NCBI GenBank assembly: GCA_013298715.1
Contig: JAAFIQ010000005.1
Coordinates: forward strand, 62,001 to 126,000
Length of the DNA stretch: 64,000 bases
DNA from: Bacteroidota bacterium
GTDB taxonomy: Bacteria; Bacteroidota; Bacteroidia; B-17B0; Aurantibacillaceae
Direction of reading: 5' to 3'
Notes under the pieces: generated by a model
What the model was told of the DNA's origin: nothing
What the model saw: only the letters and a program-made list of their open reading frames with translations
Database searches by the model: none
Shown: one piece after another, positions 52,921 through 64,000 of the stretch
Layout: every line of letters starts with the position of its first letter
Position numbering within the stretch: position 1 is the first letter of the stretch
Translations under genes and position numbers: made by a program

Positions 52921-53925
52921 ATGGCCTATTTTACTATAAATGCAGTTCAGTTAAAGGGTATAGCTGCCGCTGTTCCAAAAAATGAAGTTTCAAATTTTGA
53001 TTTAAAGTGGCTTGAAGCAGGGGAGTTACAAAAACTAATTTCTACTATTGGTATTGAAAACCGTCGTGTTGCCGATAAAGCAACTTGCGCCTCCGATTTA
53101 TGTATTGCCGCCGCCGAAAAATTAATTAACGATTTGAATTGGAATAAATCAGATATTGAAGTTATTTTTTTTGTAACCCAAACGCCAGATTACTATTTAC
53201 CTGGAACAAGTTTACATGTACAAGCACGTTTAGGTGTATCAAAATCTTGTGTTTGTTTTGACATTAACCAAGGCTGTGCAGGTTATGTTTACGGACTTTC
53301 ATTAATTTCTAGTTTTATGTCGGCTAGTAAATTAAAAAAAGGTTTGTTGTTAGTAGGTGATACAATAACAAAATTAATTTCACCAAACGATAAAAGTTTA
53401 GTGCCCATTTTTTCGGATTGCGGAACTGCAACAGCGTTCAGTTATGATGAGAATGCTTCTGCTTTTCATTTTAATATAAGCAGCGAAGGACAAGATTACT
53501 CAGCCATTATTGTACCAGATGGAGGTGCAAGAAATCCTAATGGAATACATAAAAATTTAACTATGAAAGGTTTGGATGTGTTTAATTTTAGCATAAAAAA
53601 AGTTGTACCGAATGTTTCGGACTTATTAAATGCAGCGAGCTTAAAAACAGGAGCTATTGATTATTTTATATTTCATCAAGCTAATCAATTAATACTAGAA
53701 TCGATAAGTAAAAAATTAAATTTATCAGAAACAAAAGTCCCAAGTTCGCTTAAAAACTTTGGTAATACAAGTGGTGCAACCATTCCATTAACGATACTAA
53801 CGAATTTAAAAAATAAAATAAAAAATAAAACTCTTGTCTTATCAGGTTTTGGTGTTGGTTTGTCTTTAGCCTCCGCTATTGTGAAATGTGAAAATACCGT
53901 TTGTTCAGATTTAATTGAAGTATAA
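52921..53925 (+). CDS. 3-oxoacyl-ACP synthase III-like enzyme
   Basis: A 334-residue thiolase-fold enzyme with the full KASIII triad: Cys near residue 119 (DINQGCAGYVYGLS), His near 252 (FHQANQ) and Asn near 282 (NFGNTSGATIP). It condenses acyl-CoA with malonyl-ACP, or transfers acyl groups. It is not part of a fatty-acid operon: it lies between the ACP and a GtrB-like glycosyltransferase. Similar ACP and KASIII pairs occur in glycosylation islands, for example with the flagellin glycans of Pseudomonas aeruginosa. Confidence 0.88.
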   Translation: MAYFTINAVQLKGIAAAVPKNEVSNFDLKWLEAGELQKLISTIGIENRRVADKATCASDLCIAAAEKLINDLNWNKSDIEVIFFVTQTPDYYLPGTSLHVQARLGVSKSCVCFDINQGCAGYVYGLSLISSFMSASKLKKGLLLVGDTITKLISPNDKSLVPIFSDCGTATAFSYDENASAFHFNISSEGQDYSAIIVPDGGARNPNGIHKNLTMKGLDVFNFSIKKVVPNVSDLLNAASLKTGAIDYFIFHQANQLILESISKKLNLSETKVPSSLKNFGNTSGATIPLTILTNLKNKIKNKTLVLSGFGVGLSLASAIVKCENTVCSDLIEV

Positions 53926-53926
53926 T

Positions 53927-54835
53927 ATGTCAGTAACTTATTCTTTTGTGATACCTGTGTATAAAAGCGTTTCGAGCTTAGAACCGCTGTATTTAGGTAT
54001 TAAAGAATTAATGAATGCATACACCGCCACTTATGAAGTAATTTTTGTAGAAGACAATGGCTCGGAAGAAAGTTGGAAAAAATTATTAGAGTTAAAAAAA
54101 CAATTTCCAACTACCATTAGTTTAATTAAACTCACAAAAAATTTTGGACAAAACGGCGCCACGCTTTGTGGTATTGATGTGGCAATTGGCGATTCCATTA
54201 TTACATTAGACGATGATTTACAAATACATCCAAGCGAACTAAAAAAATTGATTGATTGTAAGTTAGAAACGAATGCGGATGTTATTTATGGAATTTATAA
54301 CGAAAAAACACAAGGGTATTTTCGAAACACAGGTTCAAAATTAATAAAAAATATTTTTAACAAAACAGAAGGTGGTTCAAATGTAGGGTCATCTACACGC
54401 TTAATTAGCGGGGCAATCGCGGGGTATTTAAGAAACCATTCACAAGATCATTTATTTATTAATCAGGTTATTTCTTGGTACACCTTTAATACAAAATTTA
54501 TTGATGTAGCTAGAAATCCTCGCTACGAAGGAAAATCAGGATATAGTTTTTTTCAACTATTGGGCATTGCTTTTAGATTATTGTTTTTATATACCAGTAT
54601 TCCTTTAAAATTAATGATAGTAGTGTGTATCATAAGTTCTATTGGTTCGTTGGCTTTGGCCAGCTATTATATATACCAGCATTATGCTTTAGGAAAGGGT
54701 TTGGGTTTTTTATCATTAATTGTTATTGCTATTTCCTTAATTCTTGCTAGTATAAGCATCATGGGAATTTATTTGAATCGTATTTATACTTCGCGCGTTA
54801 AAAAGCCGCATTACGCCATTAAACTAAAATTGTAA
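53927..54835 (+). CDS. Family 2 glycosyltransferase, GtrB/ArnC-like
   Basis: About 302 residues from the ATG at 53927, one nt after the KASIII stop. The GT-A domain has FVIPVYKSVSSLEPLY and the metal site ITLDDDLQ near residue 90. Two C-terminal membrane helices (about 225-290, LKLMIVVCIISSIGSLALAS and LSLIVIAISLILASISIMG) mark polyisoprenyl-phosphate glycosyltransferases (GtrB, ArnC, DPMS type). It probably loads a sugar on undecaprenyl phosphate at the inner membrane. It is next to a GNAT that may modify this sugar. Confidence 0.88.
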   Translation: MSVTYSFVIPVYKSVSSLEPLYLGIKELMNAYTATYEVIFVEDNGSEESWKKLLELKKQFPTTISLIKLTKNFGQNGATLCGIDVAIGDSIITLDDDLQIHPSELKKLIDCKLETNADVIYGIYNEKTQGYFRNTGSKLIKNIFNKTEGGSNVGSSTRLISGAIAGYLRNHSQDHLFINQVISWYTFNTKFIDVARNPRYEGKSGYSFFQLLGIAFRLLFLYTSIPLKLMIVVCIISSIGSLALASYYIYQHYALGKGLGFLSLIVIAISLILASISIMGIYLNRIYTSRVKKPHYAIKLKL

Positions 54836-55369
54836 ATGCAAATTAGTAAATATGGCATAGTGCTTCAACGTTTAGAAGAAAAGGATTTGGAAATGGTACG
54901 TCAATGGCGTAACTCCGACCCTATTCGACTAAACATGAAATATCAAGAAATTATTTCAAGCGAAATGCAATTAAAATGGTTTGCTAATTTGGATAAAAAA
55001 ACAAATTATTATTTCATCATTAAAACCGATGAACAACCAGTTGGTTTAGTTAATTTAAAAGAAATAGATTTTACACTACTTCAAGCTGAAGCAGGAATAT
55101 TTATTGGTGACGCAGAGCAGTTGAATACACTTACTCCCCTATTAGCAACCATTGCCATTATGGAATATGCTTTTGAAGAATTGAAATTAAAAACGTTAAG
55201 AGCACAAATTGCTTCAAACAATGTAAAAGCAATTTTATTTAATGAAAGTATTGGATATGAAAAAGCAACAACACAAGTTGATGAAGCGTTTCAGTACTAC
55301 TTTACAAGCGAAAATTTGTTTAAAGAAGTCACTAAAAATATTCGTTCTACTTTAGATAAAATGAAGTAA
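54836..55369 (+). CDS. GNAT family acetyl/acyltransferase of a glycan locus
   Basis: A 177-residue GNAT enzyme resembling amino-sugar N-acetyltransferases (PseH/WecD-like): YGIVLQRLEEKDLEMVRQWRNSDPIR, and AEAGIFIGDAEQLNTLTPLLATIAIMEYAFEELKLKTLRAQ with the acetyl-CoA loop region, then NVKAILFNESIGYEK. It directly abuts the GtrB-like gene. With an ACP and KASIII just upstream, its donor may be acyl-ACP rather than acetyl-CoA; this is inference. It overlaps the end of the next, convergent gene by 18 nt. Confidence 0.82.
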   Translation: MQISKYGIVLQRLEEKDLEMVRQWRNSDPIRLNMKYQEIISSEMQLKWFANLDKKTNYYFIIKTDEQPVGLVNLKEIDFTLLQAEAGIFIGDAEQLNTLTPLLATIAIMEYAFEELKLKTLRAQIASNNVKAILFNESIGYEKATTQVDEAFQYYFTSENLFKEVTKNIRSTLDKMK

Positions 55370-56206
55370 TTTTTTTAATCTTCTCCATTCAAGTATTGCC
55401 ACTAAACGTATTGGAATACAAGGATGTAAGCCCCATTTAATTATACGGAAAACCCATGGTAAATTTGAATATGGGAATTTTTTTATAGTCATTTCTGATT
55501 TTAATAGCGGTACCAATTTCCAAAACTGAGCTTGATTGTATTTAAAATATTCTTTTGATGCGCGTTTTTTAAAAATTTCTTCTCCAATGTGAAAGGTTAA
55601 AATTTCGTTATCAAATAGTCTAAAGTTTTTGCTTAATGCAAATAAGTTTTGCGAGAAAGAAATTTCAATAAATGGAACACCAATGCAAATCCCTTCTAAT
55701 TTTAATTTCGGAAAAATATTACGATGAAAAACAAAACAATCAAAACCCGGATGCGATTTTCCCTTATCTAAATAAATATCTTGTAAACTTGAATTATCAA
55801 GGTACTTGGACGATAATCGTCGGCGATTAATGATAAACGAATCGTATCCTTGATTTATAAATTCATTTACTTTCACATAAAAATCAGGATACAAACCAAT
55901 ATCAACATTTGTATAAATTAAATAGTTGGCGTTACTTTCGTTGTATAAACGTTCTAAAATATCTAACAAAAAAGGCAACTTAATTTTTTTTTCAAAATGT
56001 TGATAATCTAAAACCGATTTTTGCAAATGTTTAGTTTGCGTAAATTCTTTTGGAACTATTGTAGCATCTTCTTCATATTGCGCTGATAATAACTTCACAT
56101 CTACAATTCCGTCCGCCATTTTTCTTGCATACAACATACTTTCAAAAGTGATAGGTTGCGCGGCGTATAGGTCAGACGAGGTATCTGCTATAAATGGATT
56201 AATCAT
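55352..56206 (-). CDS. Predicted GT-A fold protein, unknown acceptor
   Basis: About 284 residues from the ATG at 56206 (MINPFIADTSSDLYAAQPIT). No exact family is recognised. NYLIYTNVDIGLYPDFYVKVNEF holds an Asp-containing motif (NVDIGL) in the position of a glycosyltransferase DxD, followed by KGKSHPGFDCFVFHR and PFIEISFSQNLFAL. It probably has a GT-A-like fold and glycosylates the surface polymer made by its neighbours. It is transcribed opposite to the ACP operon and divergent from the next GT2. Confidence 0.55.
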   Translation of the reverse strand: MINPFIADTSSDLYAAQPITFESMLYARKMADGIVDVKLLSAQYEEDATIVPKEFTQTKHLQKSVLDYQHFEKKIKLPFLLDILERLYNESNANYLIYTNVDIGLYPDFYVKVNEFINQGYDSFIINRRRLSSKYLDNSSLQDIYLDKGKSHPGFDCFVFHRNIFPKLKLEGICIGVPFIEISFSQNLFALSKNFRLFDNEILTFHIGEEIFKKRASKEYFKYNQAQFWKLVPLLKSEMTIKKFPYSNLPWVFRIIKWGLHPCIPIRLVAILEWRRLKKLLHFI

Positions 56207-56278
56207 ATGTGCAATGGAATTCAATTAATGTTTGAAGATATAAAATTTATAGGAAATCGTTTCTTTCAAGTTTATTGT

Positions 56279-56286
56279 TATTTTTG
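56279..56286 (+). promoter_or_regulatory. -7 box of the GT2 gene
   Basis: TATTTTTG matches TAnnTTTG. Transcription should start near 56293, after the first in-frame TTG (56275), so TTG 56302 is the likely start. Confidence 0.5.
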
Positions 56287-56301
56287 CTTAAGTACAAAGT
56301 T

Positions 56302-57231
56302 TTGCAGCAGTTCCCAAAAATATCTATCGTTACCGTTAATTACAATGGCGCAAGGTTTTTAGAAGAAACGATTCTTTCTGTTTTAAATCAAAACTATCCT
56401 AATTTAGAGTATATCATTATTGATGGTGGCAGCACAGATAATAGCATTAATATTATTAAAAAATACGAAAGCAAATTAGCGTATTGGGTAAGCGAAAAAG
56501 ATGAAGGTCAGTATTACGCAGTACAAAAGGGTTTTGAAAAGAGTACTGGTGAAATAATGGCTTGGATAAACTCCGATGATTTATATGTGCCAAATGCTTT
56601 TTTTGGTGTTGCACAAATTTTCAATGAGTTTCCAAATGTAAAATGGTTAATGGGGATTCCTCGTGAATACAACGAACAAGGTGTTATGATGAGCCGTATT
56701 ACTTTGCCTTGGGGACGTTGGTCGAAACACCGTTATTATACTTACGATTTTCAATTTATTCAACAAGAATCTAGTTTTTGGAAACGGGAAGTTTGGGAAG
56801 CAACAGGAAGTAAATTAAATTTAGAGTACAAATATGCTGGCGATATGGAATTGTGGGCACGTTTTTTTCGTCATGCAACATTACATACAACCACAGCCAC
56901 CTTTGCAGGGTTTCGCTACAATAGCCAAAACCAACGCTCTATCGAATTTAGACAAGCGTATTTAGAAGAATGCGTGAAGGCAATAAAAACAGAGTTAAAA
57001 CAATTCAATGTTTTTAGGCGAATTGGGTATTTCTTTTTGAGAATAGTGGGATTATTATTTGGCGCATTTTTCTTTTATGATATCCCTGTCTTCAATATTA
57101 TTTATCCTTTATTATTTGGTATACCTAAGCCTATTCATTATAATTTTAAAACTAAGAAATTTATAAGGGAAAATTTAATGGTTAAATTACCTCCATTATT
57201 TTTTTGGAACAAACAGATACATAAAAATTAG
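56302..57231 (+). CDS. Family 2 glycosyltransferase, WcaE-like
   Basis: About 309 residues from the TTG at 56302, chosen from the -7 box at 56279-56286. The GT-A start is KISIVTVNYNGARFLEETI, with IIDGGSTDNS and the metal site AWINSDDLYVPNAFF. The C-terminal part has a membrane-associated segment (IVGLLFGAFFFYDIPVFNII). WcaE-type enzymes add sugars to exopolysaccharide or O-antigen repeats. It converges with the Wzt gene, ending 1 nt before its stop. Confidence 0.85.
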   Translation: MQQFPKISIVTVNYNGARFLEETILSVLNQNYPNLEYIIIDGGSTDNSINIIKKYESKLAYWVSEKDEGQYYAVQKGFEKSTGEIMAWINSDDLYVPNAFFGVAQIFNEFPNVKWLMGIPREYNEQGVMMSRITLPWGRWSKHRYYTYDFQFIQQESSFWKREVWEATGSKLNLEYKYAGDMELWARFFRHATLHTTTATFAGFRYNSQNQRSIEFRQAYLEECVKAIKTELKQFNVFRRIGYFFLRIVGLLFGAFFFYDIPVFNIIYPLLFGIPKPIHYNFKTKKFIRENLMVKLPPLFFWNKQIHKN

Positions 57232-57232
57232 A

Positions 57233-58366
57233 TTACAGCTTTTCAATTTTCCATTGGCAATCCGTTTGTATTGAAACTAGCTCGGTAATTTTGTGCCAAG
57301 GCAAAGCCTCAGTAACTCCCGGATTAGTTATTTCAAAGAATAAAGCATTTTCCAAATCTATTACGCTATTGGTAGTATTGACTAAAAAAATATCCAAATA
57401 GTAATTTCCTGTATTAAGTAATTCTACAGGTAGATCACAAGCCGCGGTATAGGTGCCTGCTTGTTGCGAATGACTTTTGTAACGGTATAACTCGCTATCT
57501 GTAATTAACTTTGAAAAATTATTTTTTAGAACGAACACTACATAAATATTGGAGTTACCATTATTTTTATATTTAACAGTCAACCTAACTGGTTCATTTT
57601 TTGTTACTGTTGTTTTATCAAGACTCACATCTAATAATTCACAAGATTCTGTTTTAATAGGTAACTTACTTTTTGAATCAAACGCTTTATTAACGTTTAC
57701 TAAATAATTTTCAATGGCAGATTTAGAATTGCCTACAAATGCTATTTGCCCTTGCTTTAAAATCACGCATCTATCGCAAATAGTAGCTACGGCATTAATA
57801 TCATGTGATACGAGAATACATGTTTTACCAACTTTAATGAGCTCCTGAATGTATGTCATTGATTTTTGACGAAACTCAGCATCACCTACATTAATCACTT
57901 CATCCAGTAATAAAATATCAAAATCGATATGTAACAATATAGAGAGCGCTAGACGCAGGTACATACCATTTGAATAAGTTTTCACCGGTTCATTAATAAA
58001 CTCTTTAATTCCGCTGAACTCAATAATATCGTTATAAATTGCATCAATTTGTTTTTTTGTTAAACCATGAATGGCAGCATTAAAATACACGTTCTCCTTG
58101 CCGCTAAGGTCCGAATGGAAACCGCTTCCTACTTCCAGAATGGATAAAATTTTTCCGTTTACTTCAATGGTACCTTCGCTTGGAGGTACTACCTCTGATA
58201 ATATCTTCAGTAAACTACTTTTACCTGCACCATTTTCACCAATAATACCAAGCACTTCACCCTTTTGTATTTCAAAATTAATGTTGTTTAAAGCAAAGAA
58301 TGTTTCTTTGTTTACTTTGTAACACTTCGTTAAATTATTTATGGATATGGCGATGTTTTCTTTCAA
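57233..58366 (-). CDS. Wzt-type polysaccharide ABC transporter ATPase
   Basis: A 377-residue protein beginning at TTG 58366. The ATPase domain (about 1-235) has Walker A GENGAGKSSLL, signature YSNGMYLRL typical of Wzt/TagH exporters, and Walker B DILLLDEVINVGD. The C-domain (about 245-377) is a beta-sandwich like the Wzt cargo domain that reads the polymer's chain terminus. No Wzm permease is visible in this window. It starts 1 nt after the stop of the PhyH-methyltransferase gene, so the two are co-expressed, hinting that that enzyme makes the recognised cap. Confidence 0.88.
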   Translation of the reverse strand: MKENIAISINNLTKCYKVNKETFFALNNINFEIQKGEVLGIIGENGAGKSSLLKILSEVVPPSEGTIEVNGKILSILEVGSGFHSDLSGKENVYFNAAIHGLTKKQIDAIYNDIIEFSGIKEFINEPVKTYSNGMYLRLALSILLHIDFDILLLDEVINVGDAEFRQKSMTYIQELIKVGKTCILVSHDINAVATICDRCVILKQGQIAFVGNSKSAIENYLVNVNKAFDSKSKLPIKTESCELLDVSLDKTTVTKNEPVRLTVKYKNNGNSNIYVVFVLKNNFSKLITDSELYRYKSHSQQAGTYTAACDLPVELLNTGNYYLDIFLVNTTNSVIDLENALFFEITNPGVTEALPWHKITELVSIQTDCQWKIEKL

Positions 58367-58367
58367 T

Positions 58368-60182
58368 TTATAAATCTTTTTCTTTCCAGTTTTGGGTTTG
58401 TAAAAAATACATGTTTTGTAAAAAGTAGCGACTCGTTCCTTTGTTGCTATCGTAACCGGGTTTTATTAAGGTTAACTCAAAAAAGTCAACAGGAAAAACG
58501 TATTCCCGTAAATTCTCAATTTTATTAATACCTGTTAGTTCCTGAAAGTCGTTGGAGATTGTCAGGTTTTCAAATTCTTCTAAGGGTATGTCAATTGTTT
58601 TTAAAGCGGAGAGTATAAACCCCTTTTTACGAACGTAATCTAAAACGACGTTCAAATCTGGTACATTGTAATGATAGGCGCTATTTATATTTTGTATTTC
58701 TTTCTCAATACCTAAAGCCATGTTTTTGTGCGCGGCTTTTTTTATAAACAAATCTTTTATGTAAATGCTACCGCCTGGTTTTAGTACTTTCCACGCTGAG
58801 TCTAGCACCAATTCGTGGCTATGCGCATGACCAAAGGACTCTAAAAAGTAAATAACATCAAATGTGTTTTCGGTGTAATACTTTTCTAGTGTGTGGAAGT
58901 TACCTTCTCGCACATTTACTTTGCTGTTATTTTTTGCTATGGCTTCTTTTGCAAGATTTACTTGTACACTGGAAATACTTATGGCTTCTATGGTGCAGCC
59001 AACTTTATCTGAAAAATAAATAGCGGGGCCACAAACGCCGCATCCTGCGTCTAATACTTTCATAGTTGCCTTTAGGCCCATGGTTTGAATTTGATAATCG
59101 AGGAGGGTGCTAACATCTTTGGTACGAAAGGCTTGTATCACATTTCCATAAACTTTTAAAAAATTATGTGTTTGCGCGTTGTAAAATTGTGCGACATCCT
59201 TTTTTATTGGTGAGCTATTTGTTTGACTTTCCTTAATAGGTTCGGGTGATGTTTTTGCATTTAAGCGGTACTTCAATTCTGCCAAAATATTTTTTACGGT
59301 GTATTTCTCAAAAAAGGTTCGTTGGTCTTCAGGCATTATTTGCTGGGTGTTTGAGGGCGCGCTTAAAAATAGCGTTTTAAATTCATTGAATGTGAGTTCG
59401 TTTTGCTGCCCGGAAAGTATTGATTTTAAAGGAAACTCAACAAAATCGGTTAATGTGTTTTTAGAGAGAAAATAATTTTCATCACAGGCATATAACTTTA
59501 TAATTCCATTATCGCTGCCATAAATCTGTAGTTCGGTATTTGCTTTAACTATACCAACTACAATACCCAATCTGTCTTTAGTGGTTTTATTTGGAGGAGA
59601 GCCGTGTAGTAATGCGTGATCGTAAAGGAGAGCATAGCCGGCCTTCATGCGAAGTGGTGTTAAGTAGCTCCAAAGTTCTTGTTCAATACCTTTAAACATG
59701 GATGGTATTTGAGGCCCCCTGTAGTTGAGGATTTTTGCATGGCTTTTAGGAAGTACAAAAAGAGCGCCATTATCTTCGTTAACATCAATTAATGGTATCC
59801 ATAAATTATAAGAACGCTGTTTTGTTTCGTCCACTAAATTCCAATCCTGATGGGCTTGCAAAATACCTTTTCCATTACCAGGTTTAACTACGTATGCGCC
59901 GCCAAGTAGCTTAAAATCCACTAACTTATTTTTTAAGATCGGTTCTATGACTTTAATTATAAATGCACTTGTTTGTTTTCTGAATGCAATATCTTGCGAA
60001 TGCGTAGTTGCATAAAAATGATTGGGTTTATCTTTTTGAAAACTCTCGTAATAGTTTATTAAACCAATAATGTCGTTATCTTCCAAACAAGGAAAGATGC
60101 TAAATCCTTCTTTTGCGAGTTGTTCATCTAGCTTTTCATCAAGCAATTTGGGTGTATATTTAAAATCTATTTTATCAACCAT
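58368..60182 (-). CDS. PhyH-type dioxygenase fused to SAM methyltransferase
   Basis: A 604-residue two-domain protein. Residues about 15-285 are a phytanoyl-CoA dioxygenase (PhyH) domain with the Fe(II) facial triad His111-x-Asp113 (QAHQDWN) and His193 (LLHGSPPN). A conserved linker FFEKYTVKNILAELKYRL follows (about 295-315). The C-terminal class I methyltransferase (about 340-604) has motif I KVLDAGCGVCGPAIYF. Together they could hydroxylate and methylate a sugar or lipid. It is directly upstream of wzt in the same operon. A paralogous PhyH domain, with the same linker but no methyltransferase, is at 62821. Confidence 0.88.
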   Translation of the reverse strand: MVDKIDFKYTPKLLDEKLDEQLAKEGFSIFPCLEDNDIIGLINYYESFQKDKPNHFYATTHSQDIAFRKQTSAFIIKVIEPILKNKLVDFKLLGGAYVVKPGNGKGILQAHQDWNLVDETKQRSYNLWIPLIDVNEDNGALFVLPKSHAKILNYRGPQIPSMFKGIEQELWSYLTPLRMKAGYALLYDHALLHGSPPNKTTKDRLGIVVGIVKANTELQIYGSDNGIIKLYACDENYFLSKNTLTDFVEFPLKSILSGQQNELTFNEFKTLFLSAPSNTQQIMPEDQRTFFEKYTVKNILAELKYRLNAKTSPEPIKESQTNSSPIKKDVAQFYNAQTHNFLKVYGNVIQAFRTKDVSTLLDYQIQTMGLKATMKVLDAGCGVCGPAIYFSDKVGCTIEAISISSVQVNLAKEAIAKNNSKVNVREGNFHTLEKYYTENTFDVIYFLESFGHAHSHELVLDSAWKVLKPGGSIYIKDLFIKKAAHKNMALGIEKEIQNINSAYHYNVPDLNVVLDYVRKKGFILSALKTIDIPLEEFENLTISNDFQELTGINKIENLREYVFPVDFFELTLIKPGYDSNKGTSRYFLQNMYFLQTQNWKEKDL

Positions 60183-60331: not shown

Positions 60332-61312
60332 CTAATATGCGCCTAGAAACTTATTTCCATTGAAATGTACTAAATAGTCAGGATTATCTGAAATCCATAC
60401 TTCTGTCTCCCAAGCAACATCTAACATCCATTTTCTAAAGTCAGGTCGAGTGAGAAAACCGGTTATAAATATTAATTCGGCTTTGCAGTCTTTGAGCATT
60501 TTCTTTAACTCCAAAACCCTTGTTTCACTCATTGGGCCAGAACTATGAACGGCTTCAATTAGATACATCCAATTATTCTTTTTACTGTAGGGAACTATGT
60601 CTGGAAGTTCGTCATGTGATAGCTCAAAAAAATTCAACTTTTTAAGTTCTTCCTGTTCTATATGTAAAGTTTTGTTTGATGTATCGCCAACGTATAGTAC
60701 AATGCAATCACTACCAAAACGAGGTCGAAATTCTTCAATAAGTGCTTTTTGTAGAACATTGTGTTCGCCAAGCGAAAGTTCAATTGATTTGCCATTTGGA
60801 AGTTTTACTGGAATTTTTTCAAGTTCTCTTTTCCTTGAAAGAATTTCGGAGAGTGATGGTTTGTTTTTATTGAATGCCTTTAGATTCTTTGTCCAGTAAG
60901 ATGTTTTGTATGAAATGATAAGTTGTTTAAAGCTAGGGTGTAAAGCATAGCCCCTAGTGGGGTCATTTGTTGCTGAACCTTTTTTCACTCCACTATTTAC
61001 AACAACATCAGCAAGTACAAGAAGTTTTAAATCCTTTCTTCTTATATCGTCATAAGAACCGGGTGAGATTTTCTCTTCAAAGTTTTTATTAACAAAGTTT
61101 ATTATATCGCGAGATTTAAGATTCGTATTTTCTTTTGCTTCGTTCCAATCCCTTTTAACACCTGCAACGGCAAGAAAGCAAACAGCCATCCTTTCTAAGC
61201 CTCTTTCTGTCTTAGACATTGGAATTCCCACACTTTCTAATATATCAAGAGCCTCATTTATAATTTTTTGAACTCCTTTTGATTTAGTATTTTTTGGTAT
61301 ATAATTCTTCAT
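60332..61312 (-). CDS. BsuBI/PstI family type II restriction endonuclease
   Basis: A 326-residue protein. The N-terminal helical domain (about 1-160) resembles the BsuBI/PstI N-domain. The C-terminal domain matches the family: PRFGSDCIVLYVGDTSNKTLH, LPDIVPY (catalytic Asp region) and YLIEAVHSSGPMSETR, with the EAVxSxGP motif. Classical members cut CTGCAG and pair with an N6-adenine methyltransferase. Here the partner, one nt upstream, is a C5-cytosine methyltransferase, so the target may differ. The pair is co-transcribed, methyltransferase first. Confidence 0.88.
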   Translation of the reverse strand: MKNYIPKNTKSKGVQKIINEALDILESVGIPMSKTERGLERMAVCFLAVAGVKRDWNEAKENTNLKSRDIINFVNKNFEEKISPGSYDDIRRKDLKLLVLADVVVNSGVKKGSATNDPTRGYALHPSFKQLIISYKTSYWTKNLKAFNKNKPSLSEILSRKRELEKIPVKLPNGKSIELSLGEHNVLQKALIEEFRPRFGSDCIVLYVGDTSNKTLHIEQEELKKLNFFELSHDELPDIVPYSKKNNWMYLIEAVHSSGPMSETRVLELKKMLKDCKAELIFITGFLTRPDFRKWMLDVAWETEVWISDNPDYLVHFNGNKFLGAY

Positions 61313-61313
61313 A

Positions 61314-62333
61314 TTAAAAAAGTGTCAGTATTTGATTTGGTTGTATATTATTTTCAATAATTTCTTCTGCCGAATAATGTTCTTTCAATTGAAGACATTC
61401 TTTTAAAGCCAATGCCAATTGATACGCTAAAAGTGGCGGTACTGCATTTCCAATTTGATTAAATCTTCGCGTTTCATTACCATTAAATTCATACCAATCG
61501 GGAAAGCTTTGCAATCTAGCTGCTTCTCTTTGCAACAGTCTTCTGCGTTTTCCATCCTTTAATTTGACACGTTGCATATCACCCGTAGCACCCGCAAGAT
61601 TTCGACAGGTTAATGTTCTAGCAGGTTTGTTAGCATATAAGTCCCTAGGATTAATGCATGAAGACGCTTTTTCGTATTTGGCAACATAGGTGTCCATTGA
61701 AGGAGTGAAAAATTTACTTTCTGGTGGAGTGGTAAACATTAAGTCACCTATAGCTTCTCCAACGGTTACTTTATAGGAATTTGGTTTTGGAAAGTTAAAT
61801 TTTGAGCGATGCCCAAAAACAAAAAGTCGTTCTCTGTTTTGCGGCACACCGAAGTTTACAGCGTTTAATAATCTGAAGTCAATAATATAACCTAACTTTC
61901 GAAGTTCTGTTAATATCAAATCGAAGTACCATTTATTTGTATATAGAAGTCCCCGAACATTCTCGAACATAAAAATCTTCGGCTGTAATTTCCTAACGGC
62001 ATCAATAAAAACTGGAAAACCATCTCTCGCATCTTCTATTCCTTTTTGATGTCCACCTACACTGAAAGGTTGACAAGGAGGCCCGCCAATTAAAATATCT
62101 GCTTTAGGATATTCAAAGTCAATGTCAAGTTTTATAGGGAAACACTCTCCAACAAGGTTTTTGTTATACGTTTCTGAGGCGGCTTTGTCCATTTCATAGC
62201 CAATTGTTTTGTAGCCCGCAGCCTCAAAGCCTAATGATAATCCACCACAACCCGCAAATAAATCAATAACAACTTCGTTTTCTGCTATTCTAGGTTTGAG
62301 CGTTTCGTTTATATATTCGATATAATTTATCAT
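61314..62333 (-). CDS. dcm: DNA C5-cytosine methyltransferase
   Basis: About 339 residues from the ATG at 62333; a longer frame from a TTG at 62360 is less likely. Motif I VIDLFAGCGGLSLGFE, motif IV with the catalytic Cys GGPPCQPFSVGG, motif VI FENVRGLL, motif VIII QNRERLFVFG, and motif X GNAVPP are all present. The short target-recognition region around SSCINPRDLYANKPARTLTCR is unique. It protects host DNA against the adjacent endonuclease. The recognised sequence is unknown. Confidence 0.93.
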   Translation of the reverse strand: MINYIEYINETLKPRIAENEVVIDLFAGCGGLSLGFEAAGYKTIGYEMDKAASETYNKNLVGECFPIKLDIDFEYPKADILIGGPPCQPFSVGGHQKGIEDARDGFPVFIDAVRKLQPKIFMFENVRGLLYTNKWYFDLILTELRKLGYIIDFRLLNAVNFGVPQNRERLFVFGHRSKFNFPKPNSYKVTVGEAIGDLMFTTPPESKFFTPSMDTYVAKYEKASSCINPRDLYANKPARTLTCRNLAGATGDMQRVKLKDGKRRRLLQREAARLQSFPDWYEFNGNETRRFNQIGNAVPPLLAYQLALALKECLQLKEHYSAEEIIENNIQPNQILTLF

Positions 62334-62441
62334 TTCTTTTATATAGGTTAAAGATAACAAAAACAGCCTTGGAATTGTAGTGAATTTTCAACATCAAAGC
62401 ATGTAAAAATCGCTCGTTTTGATAATTTGTAAAAATTTTAT

Positions 62442-62820: not shown

Positions 62821-64000
62821 TTATTTTTTCTCTAGTCTATATTTTATTTCTTTAATTATATTGGGTACAGAATATTTCTCGAAAAAACTTCTTGTATCAA
62901 CCCATTCTTTTTGCTCAACTGAAGTAATCGCTTCAATTTGTTTTTTTTCTTCTACACCCGAGGAATTATTAAATTCATCGTTTGTTTTTATTGGCGTTCC
63001 ATCTATATTGTAATTATAGAGTGTAGCCAATTCTTTCATTAACGCTTCGTTAAACTTTGCAGGTGTTTTGGTTGCTATTAAACTTGTAATTTCGGCTTTG
63101 GTGTAATTAGGATTATTTTTCTTATAAGTCGCAATTACTTCTAAACCTTGCGGTTCTTGATTATTTGTGTATAACTGCGATAACTTTTTATTATTAAATT
63201 TTTTAAAAAACGTTTCATCTACTTTGTACACATTTACTTTTCCATTCGTATTTGGTAATTCGTAATGGTGAAGTAATTGCGCATCTTTTTGTGTAATACC
63301 TATTCCAACCCCTATTCGTGTGGTACCTGAAATATTTGGCGGCGAGGCATGAACCGTTCTGTTATTAAAAATTAATGCTTCGCCAGCTTTCATATCTATC
63401 ACTTCTACATAAGGAAATACATCAAACAAATGATTGGATAAGACCGATTTTGATTGAGGAGATGGTGACATACGCGGCTCATTAAACACTTTATGACTTC
63501 CTCTGATAACACTTAATGCGCCGTTATTTTTATTGACATCCATTATTGGAATCCAAACTGTGGCTGAGCAAAATTTTGTTTCATCAACAAAAGTCCAGTC
63601 CTGGTGCGGCGGTACAATGTTTTGCAAGCCGGCTTCCTTAATGACATAACTTGCCGTGAAGGGCTTATAATTGGTTAAGATGGGATTTAATTTAGGAACC
63701 AATACACCAAACAGTTTTTCAAATACACCCTTAATATAATCTTCATTATCATTATCCAAACTCACGTGAAACCCGTATTCACCAATATGGTCGTGCTTTT
63801 GAGCGAGGTAGTAGTTCTTTAAATCTTCTACTTCGTTTGCGTTCAGTAATGGAATTTTTACAAAACCATCGCTATCAAATTTTGCTTGAATTTCTGTATC
63901 TAAAAACAAAGGCGCAATTGTTTCTTTTTCATCAAAACGTTTTGCTTTTAATCCTTTTAAAAAATCTTTATACGAATAATTTTGTTCTACATAATGCAGA
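62821..64000 (-). CDS. PhyH family dioxygenase (partial, 5' end beyond window)
   Basis: The reading frame is open to the right edge, giving 392 visible codons; the start is outside. The last part upstream of the domain reads YKDFLKGLKAKRFDEKETIAP. The PhyH domain follows from LDTEIQAKFDSDGFVKI, with His-x-Asp in VPPHQDWTF and the distal His in NRTVHASPPN. The C-terminus FFEKYSVPNIIKEIKYRLEKK matches the linker of the PhyH-methyltransferase at 58368, but ends there, without a methyltransferase. It is likely an iron/2-oxoglutarate oxygenase of the glycan locus. An additional N-terminal domain may lie beyond the window. Confidence 0.82.
   Translation of the reverse strand, partial: LHYVEQNYSYKDFLKGLKAKRFDEKETIAPLFLDTEIQAKFDSDGFVKIPLLNANEVEDLKNYYLAQKHDHIGEYGFHVSLDNDNEDYIKGVFEKLFGVLVPKLNPILTNYKPFTASYVIKEAGLQNIVPPHQDWTFVDETKFCSATVWIPIMDVNKNNGALSVIRGSHKVFNEPRMSPSPQSKSVLSNHLFDVFPYVEVIDMKAGEALIFNNRTVHASPPNISGTTRIGVGIGITQKDAQLLHHYELPNTNGKVNVYKVDETFFKKFNNKKLSQLYTNNQEPQGLEVIATYKKNNPNYTKAEITSLIATKTPAKFNEALMKELATLYNYNIDGTPIKTNDEFNNSSGVEEKKQIEAITSVEQKEWVDTRSFFEKYSVPNIIKEIKYRLEKK

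Follow-up and report, generated by a model that had tools for sequence, protein, structure and literature searches.

A PhyH-methyltransferase fusion beside wzt is one variant of a conserved wzm-PhyH-methyltransferase-wzt cassette in Bacteroidota

Surface-glycan exporters of the ATP-binding cassette (ABC) type frequently require that the chain they transport bears a chemical mark, and the marks named in the papers cited here are methyl, phosphate or methylphosphate, and added Kdo (3-deoxy-D-manno-oct-2-ulosonic acid). According to excerpts of PMC11231755, PMC3482155 and PMC9445017, the C-terminal domain of Wzt in the described systems recognises a methyl or methylphosphate cap, and the terminators carry a coiled-coil ruler. 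The closest of these are WbdD of Escherichia coli O9a/O8 and the Klebsiella pneumoniae O7 terminator, which, in the same excerpts (PMC3482155, PMC11231755), are methyltransferase (MT)-containing proteins tied to an ABC exporter with a Wzt C-domain; there the MT is combined with a kinase and a coiled-coil, whereas WbdD of O8 has the methyltransferase only (PMC3482155). In this study we analysed a stretch of 64,000 nucleotides, called the window below (positions 62,001 to 126,000 of contig JAAFIQ010000005.1, assembly GCA_013298715.1), from a Bacteroidota bacterium of the family Aurantibacillaceae, in which a gene fusing a PhyH-type oxygenase domain to an S-adenosylmethionine (SAM) dependent MT adjoins wzt. 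This gene pair is one variant of a cassette with a conserved order: wzm, three to seven PhyH domains, MT, wzt. Unlike in WbdD and the O7 terminator, the MT is accompanied by PhyH domains and is mostly a separate protein, no ruler was seen in the structure model, and no kinase domain as in the O9a and O7 terminators is among the Pfam and NCBIfam matches.

Other described systems resemble the cassette in part. The Aquifex aeolicus WzmWzt transporter (PDB 8dku, 7k2t) is similar across the whole of Wzt, with a nucleotide-binding domain (NBD) and a C-terminal domain, but the residues of its 3-O-methyl pocket are not conserved here. EvdO2, AviO1, HygX, SnoK and SnoN are PhyH-type Fe(II)/2-oxoglutarate (2OG) enzymes that remodel sugar units, but they are only distantly similar, belong to secondary metabolism and are not linked to export. 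PDB entry 6ec3, EvdMO1 of the everninomicin pathway, gave a single weak match towards its C-terminal end (residues 428-460 of 471, E-value 0.0023), so that the domain order is reversed, and EvdMO1 is not among the 60 matches of the MT profile. EvdMO1 likewise is an MT-oxygenase fusion of an oligosaccharide pathway, as its title in the reference list of PMC10338323 indicates, but it serves an antibiotic pathway and is not an orthologue. Hence the fusion type has a precedent, with the order reversed by this weak match. AviO1, EvdO and HygX enzymes take part in orthoester formation according to part of PMC8234114. In Xanthomonas citri the PhyH-like gene XAC3597 lies in a lipopolysaccharide cluster that holds wzm and wzt, and it is listed among biofilm-defective insertion mutants, but the excerpts of PMC3130047 describe neither an MT fusion nor an oxygenase row. 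The cassette is real, and among the papers listed by our search of the open-access literature none describes it, nor, apart from that on XAC3597, does any report a PhyH row or a PhyH-MT protein at a wzm/wzt locus.

Of 60 related genomes, 7 contain a match to the fusion, the window's own included, and so do five loci of a contig collection (L035 and L037 being counted once each as loci already found among the related genomes). Of 395 class genomes, 15 carry an MT of the cassette family, again counting the window's own. Among genomes drawn from the phylum, the MT was found in 1 of 395 and the wzm-proximal PhyH domain, P1, in 1 of 296, both times in the window's own genome, and the genomes listed there belong to the same class, other classes being hardly covered. 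Thirteen loci (L005, which is the window's own, L034, L036-L041, L043, L044 and L067-L069, with L044 and L067 near copies) carry a close MT, at least 54% identical to that of the window. Between wzm and MT stand three to seven PhyH domains in the 11 loci showing both genes, and a whole stretch holds up to 12 (L068). At nine of the 13 close loci wzt lies in the cassette, either as the next gene (five loci) or with one (three) or two genes (one) in between; at the other four it is not seen, as the contig ends first in L034, L044 and L067, and L043 has none after the MT. The preliminary description, made from the sequence of the window, had linked PhyH-MT to wzt, which holds for these nine loci; of eight more distant MT loci (L070-L077), four have wzt in the stretch and four do not, L070 being only 6 kb long. 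It had also assigned both reactions to one polypeptide. This is not required, since PhyH and MT are fused in only four close loci (L005, L034, L039, L040) and separate in nine. There are also several PhyH domains between wzm and MT, and not one. The same split rules out the fusion as the key feature. A tree of 21 MTs is compatible with either one or several origins of the fusion: the fused label needs three changes, and the starred branches force one.

The combination is specific when compared with other Wzt loci. A first control covered 40 of the 77 listed Wzt_C places of the class, mostly from the top, with PhyH sought within up to 7 kb; PhyH was found at two of them and the cassette MT at none. 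Because the Pfam search behind this control missed the cassette Wzts and so favoured Wzts of another C-domain type, we added the 20 loci ranked highest by a cassette-Wzt profile, leaving out those already taken and the known cassettes, and found PhyH at one and the cassette MT at none. Combined, PhyH occurs at 3/60 other Wzt loci and the cassette MT at 0/60, eight of these 60 loci being shorter than 10 kb. In the window's own genome three of four PhyH matches fall in this operon, and its three other Wzt loci have no PhyH. Of 295 class genomes, 14 match P1 at an E-value of 1e-40 or better; in 10 of them the match goes beyond 1e-100, and all 10 have a cassette-family MT. PhyH genes close to Wzt genes but not in a known cassette occur in two further genomes (L196:9506-10387, L172:8780-9712).

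The PhyH domains fall into two kinds at the iron site. Among 94 domains from 19 loci, 13 are P1 and all of these read HxN, while the remaining 81 comprise 80 with HxD and one truncated at the site. With three further copies added, P1 has HxN instead of the iron-binding HxD in 16/16 copies (window copy L005:8051-8800), and it directly follows wzm on the same strand in 14 of 16 loci, L048 and L191 being the exceptions. Two more distant PhyHs also have HxN (L192, L194). In P2 (11 rows) and P5 (10 rows) the HxD...H triad and the 2OG arginine are invariant. Mean pairwise identity of P1 is 65.4% over nine loci, like that of the MT (65.6%) and above that of P5 (51.2%, eight loci), which argues against decay of the HxN domain.

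Within the window, the fusion scores well above the Pfam cut-offs for both halves, with 68.8 bits for PhyH (PF05721, cut-off 22) and 52.4 bits for Methyltransf_11 (cut-off 21.2). The preliminary description had the PhyH-MT reading frame end one nucleotide ahead of that of the Wzt ATPase, with an intact iron triad and SAM motif I. The reading frame coordinates are exactly so; H111, D113 and H193 together with the 2OG-binding R204 are invariant in 10/10 aligned P5 orthologues, and the motif LDAGCGV in 10/10 aligned sequences. For the fusion, the structure model is of modest quality (mean predicted local distance difference test, pLDDT, 61.5; residues 274-331 below 50). Its VIA structure list covered mostly the MT (model residues 327-577), the PhyH fold being hardly represented, and the MT part matches TleD, phosphoethanolamine MTs, MitM, AtmM and RebM. 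In a profile search with the MT, RebM came out best (5.8e-17), followed by MitM, and AtmM ('D-glucose O-methyltransferase') was fourth; RebM and AtmM presumably act on sugars. Profiles of the PhyH domains also reach SnoK, SnoN and, weakly, EvdO2, and like the MT matches this speaks for chemistry on sugars.

Many cassette proteins carry candidate membrane tethers. A tail motif of the approximate form F(F/W)xxYTPxNIxxEIKxRL is found in 28 of 94 PhyH reading frames of 28 loci. It lies at most 12 residues from the C-terminal end in 25 of the 28; the other three are the fusions L005, L039 and L040, in which it stands in the linker, and the L034 fusion has a variant of it. The motif is absent from 312 other reading frames of the same loci, from 502 of the 40 control loci and from 257 of the 20 added ones. 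Many other cassette PhyHs terminate in short basic amphipathic tails, and the median helical hydrophobic moment of the tail is 0.51 in cassette PhyHs (n=58) vs 0.24 in other PhyHs (n=16; p 9e-7). An N-terminal transmembrane helix is predicted in five of the nine split close MTs (L036, L037, L038, L041, L043; hydropathy 2.2-3.1), and the split MTs L044 and L067-L069 begin with a short, mostly basic segment. As a PhyH-specific helix motif stands in the linker of the fusions and several split MTs have a transmembrane helix, joining the MT to PhyH may serve in place of the anchor.

We consider it probable, though by no means certain, that the oxygenases and the MT, cytosolic but tethered to the membrane, modify a glycan while it is still lipid-linked, ahead of its export by Wzm/Wzt. 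PhyH-MT would then be one unit of an export-linked modification cassette made up of wzm, a row of PhyH-type Fe(II)/2OG oxygenases, one SAM MT and wzt. The enzymes would be held at the inner membrane, the PhyHs by C-terminal amphipathic helices and several split MTs by their N-terminal transmembrane helix, for which the PhyH helix motif would substitute in the fusion. There the PhyHs would oxidise sugar residues of the lipid-linked glycan, or acyl substituents of these, the MT would O-methylate the glycan, and Wzm/Wzt would export the modified product; the tethering, the glycan substrate and this order of reactions are what we infer. A more elaborate version appears improbable to us, namely an export-coupled assembly line in which several tethered PhyHs and one MT assemble, on the lipid-linked surface glycan, a methylated sugar unit remodelled by oxidation, for example into a cyclised or orthoester-like form, while the conserved HxN domain beside wzm does not hydroxylate but serves as an adaptor tying the line to the transporter. 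If the cassette works as we suggest, its oxygenase row and MT in a wzm-wzt operon would add oxidation to the marks named above, and Bacteroidota could then possess a new class of oxidised surface sugars. Two features lend themselves to direct tests, the conserved HxN domain next to wzm and the seeming swap of a transmembrane anchor for a fusion partner.

Several observations weigh against modification of a lipid-linked glycan by tethered enzymes. A search with the single MT sequence ranks phosphoethanolamine N-MT first, and in the PDB the PhyH profiles match MysH (P2, P5) and PHYHD1 (P1) best, ahead of the sugar enzymes. G184, G125 and G157 have a PhyH row from which the MT is missing, being found on another contig, and wzm accompanies this row in two of these three genomes; the oxygenases and the MT therefore need not act together. 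The evidence for tethers is also qualified: the tail motif pattern was composed after examples had been inspected, non-PhyH reading frames of the same loci reach a median tail moment of 0.41 (n=99), 7/58 cassette PhyH tails score below 0.37, and the tail helices are sequence predictions. No transmembrane helix is found in four of the nine split close MTs, nor in most of the distant ones.

It might also be that PhyH-MT hydroxylates and methylates the non-reducing end of the chain and thereby halts elongation, the mark being read by the C-domain of Wzt, as the preliminary description proposed. The position of the MT gene next to wzt, the closeness of the MT to sugar O-MTs and the methyl and methylphosphate caps established elsewhere (parts of PMC3482155 and PMC11231755) would fit, as would the Wzt domain itself, which matches the carbohydrate-binding domain (CBD) of A. 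aeolicus WzmWzt, in excerpts of PMC9445017 the reader of a 3-O-methyl cap. With 76.4 bits for ABC_tran (cut-off 25) and 25.4 bits for Wzt_C, below its cut-off of 30.4, the window's Wzt nonetheless retains its C-terminal cargo domain, as had been claimed, by structure model and profile alignment. The top seven Foldseek matches of its model are chains of full-length A. aeolicus WzmWzt (8dku_A, E-value 1.1e-30, 378 columns), and a profile of five cassette Wzts extends into the A. aeolicus CBD (25-359 on 26-372). VIA aligned 335 residues over model residues 6-355 to A. aeolicus WzmWzt (Z 27.5, root-mean-square deviation 9.9), a score that rests mostly on the NBD, as NBD-only chains tie within 1 Z. 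The cassette thus has what marks a Wzm/Wzt exporter, a Wzt with NBD and CBD-type domain and a wzm partner, whose permease falls short of the cut-offs of the galactan Wzm and KpsM models that it matches. Exporter linkage and the CBD-type domain therefore stand, but the reading of a terminal mark finds less support. His350, His355 and Trp362 of A. aeolicus lack counterparts in all five Wzts compared, as judged by eye from a weak C-domain alignment numbered one above the paper, and the column of the hinge Tyr233 holds Leu222 in the window, with Tyr in two of five relatives. Over nine loci Wzt-C is the most variable part (mean identity 27.0%) while the MT is conserved (65.6%), and Wzt-C identity follows that of the Wzt NBD (r 0.83) more than that of the MT, with which co-variation is only weak (r 0.43). 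No helix long enough for a ruler is seen in the fusion model (longest 23 residues; linker pLDDT below 50), each locus has several PhyHs, and half of the distant MTs lack wzt in their stretch. Taken together, we regard such a terminal cap as unlikely, though the chain could still bear a different cap.

The founding PhyH enzyme acts on acyl-CoA, and the PhyHs and MT could accordingly modify a lipid or lipid carrier (a polyprenyl or acyl chain), the exporter moving a glycolipid. Predicted membrane tethers agree with this, and so do KASIII and GNAT genes conserved nearby and a UbiA-type gene, which occurs in the window's own locus and, as a UbiA-like gene, directly beside the MT in five of eight distant loci and in the same stretch in two more (a representative scoring below the Pfam cut-off). 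Several of the nearest solved MT and PhyH relatives presumably act on glycosides, however, and Wzt bears a CBD-type domain, so that we find a lipid substrate rather improbable. Still more doubtful is a soluble activated sugar made for glycosyltransferases, with the place beside wzt a mere convenience of the operon. It would account for distant MTs whose sugar loci show no wzt within the stretch (L070-L072, L075) and for the MT apart from the PhyH row in three genomes, but MT anchors and PhyH tail helices would be superfluous for a soluble substrate, and P1 follows wzm in 14/16 loci.

The operon of the window (Table 1) departs from those of its relatives. P3 and P4 are missing, and in their place, between the double PhyH gene and PhyH-MT, stand a P3 remnant and a restriction-modification pair. 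The preliminary description had missed this remnant as well as the double PhyH gene and wzm, which reach or lie beyond the window edge. In tblastn the remnant is 62-71% identical over about 35 residues to P3 of four loci (E-values 4e-9 to 8e-12, 2.8-kb target), so P3, or a part of it, once belonged to the operon, which was then interrupted. With P3 and P4 gone, this genome probably makes a simpler product than its relatives do. L040 also lacks P3 and P4, but has no comparable insert. PstI and BsuBI themselves presumably pair with adenine methyltransferases, unlike the endonuclease here. A BRO-N-type reading frame (L046:733-1050, the copy with the Pfam Bro-N match) has the same operon position as the truncated reading frame of the window, and its occurrence at one place in two genomes suggests an insertion hotspot inside the cassette.

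Table 1. Coordinates of the features in and next to the window (L005, the window's own locus)
Feature	Coordinates	Strand	Remarks
wzt, ABC ATPase with C-terminal beta-sandwich (cargo/CBD-type) domain, 377 aa	57233..58366	-	TTG start
PhyH-MT fusion, 604 aa (PhyH orthogroup P5 + MT)	58368..60182	-	ATG start
PhyH domain P5, aa 1-250	59433..60182	-	H111/D113/H193/R204 intact
Linker helix motif FEKYTVKNILAELKYRL, aa 291-307	59262..59312	-	same motif terminates many other cassette PhyH proteins
Class I SAM MT domain, aa 326-604	58371..59207	-	solved relatives RebM, AtmM, MitM, TleD, phosphoethanolamine MTs
36-codon remnant of PhyH gene P3	60205..60315	-	directly before PhyH-MT
BsuBI/PstI-type restriction endonuclease	60332..61312	-	inserted in operon
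C5-cytosine DNA methyltransferase	61314..62360	-	of the inserted restriction-modification pair
Truncated reading frame, 79 aa	62548..62787	-	next after double PhyH; by eye resembles L046 BRO-N reading frame
Double PhyH gene (P1+P2)	62821..64000	-	runs beyond window edge, full gene L005:6821-8800, 659 aa; P1 HxN, P2 HxD; C-terminal end FEKYSVPNIIKEIKYRLEKK
wzm-type permease	L005:8811-9629		upstream of double PhyH, outside window, same direction

Neighbours of the cassette include glycosyltransferases, an epimerase, a UDP-sugar dehydrogenase and a carbamoyltransferase. In the window, positions 52921-57231 encode KASIII, a GT2 glycosyltransferase, a PseH-like GNAT protein, a 290-aa protein that matches no Pfam family and another GT2, and this block recurs whole or partly beside the cassette in several genomes; a literature search on a viosamine-type KASIII/acyl/MT pathway gave nothing usable. 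Further genes were seen in and around the cassettes of other genomes. Two reading frames, of 482 aa (with a weak Cu2_monooxygen match below the cut-off) and 189 aa, stand between P5 and the MT at L037:5845-7859. A radical SAM protein is encoded after the MT at L039:13774-15117, L038:7748-9100 and L034:3023-3433; in L038 and L039 its gene sits between MT and wzt, and the contig of L034 ends in or just past it. On the far side of wzt there are further PhyH rows, of five genes at L068:1473-6292 and of six at L045:717-6273.

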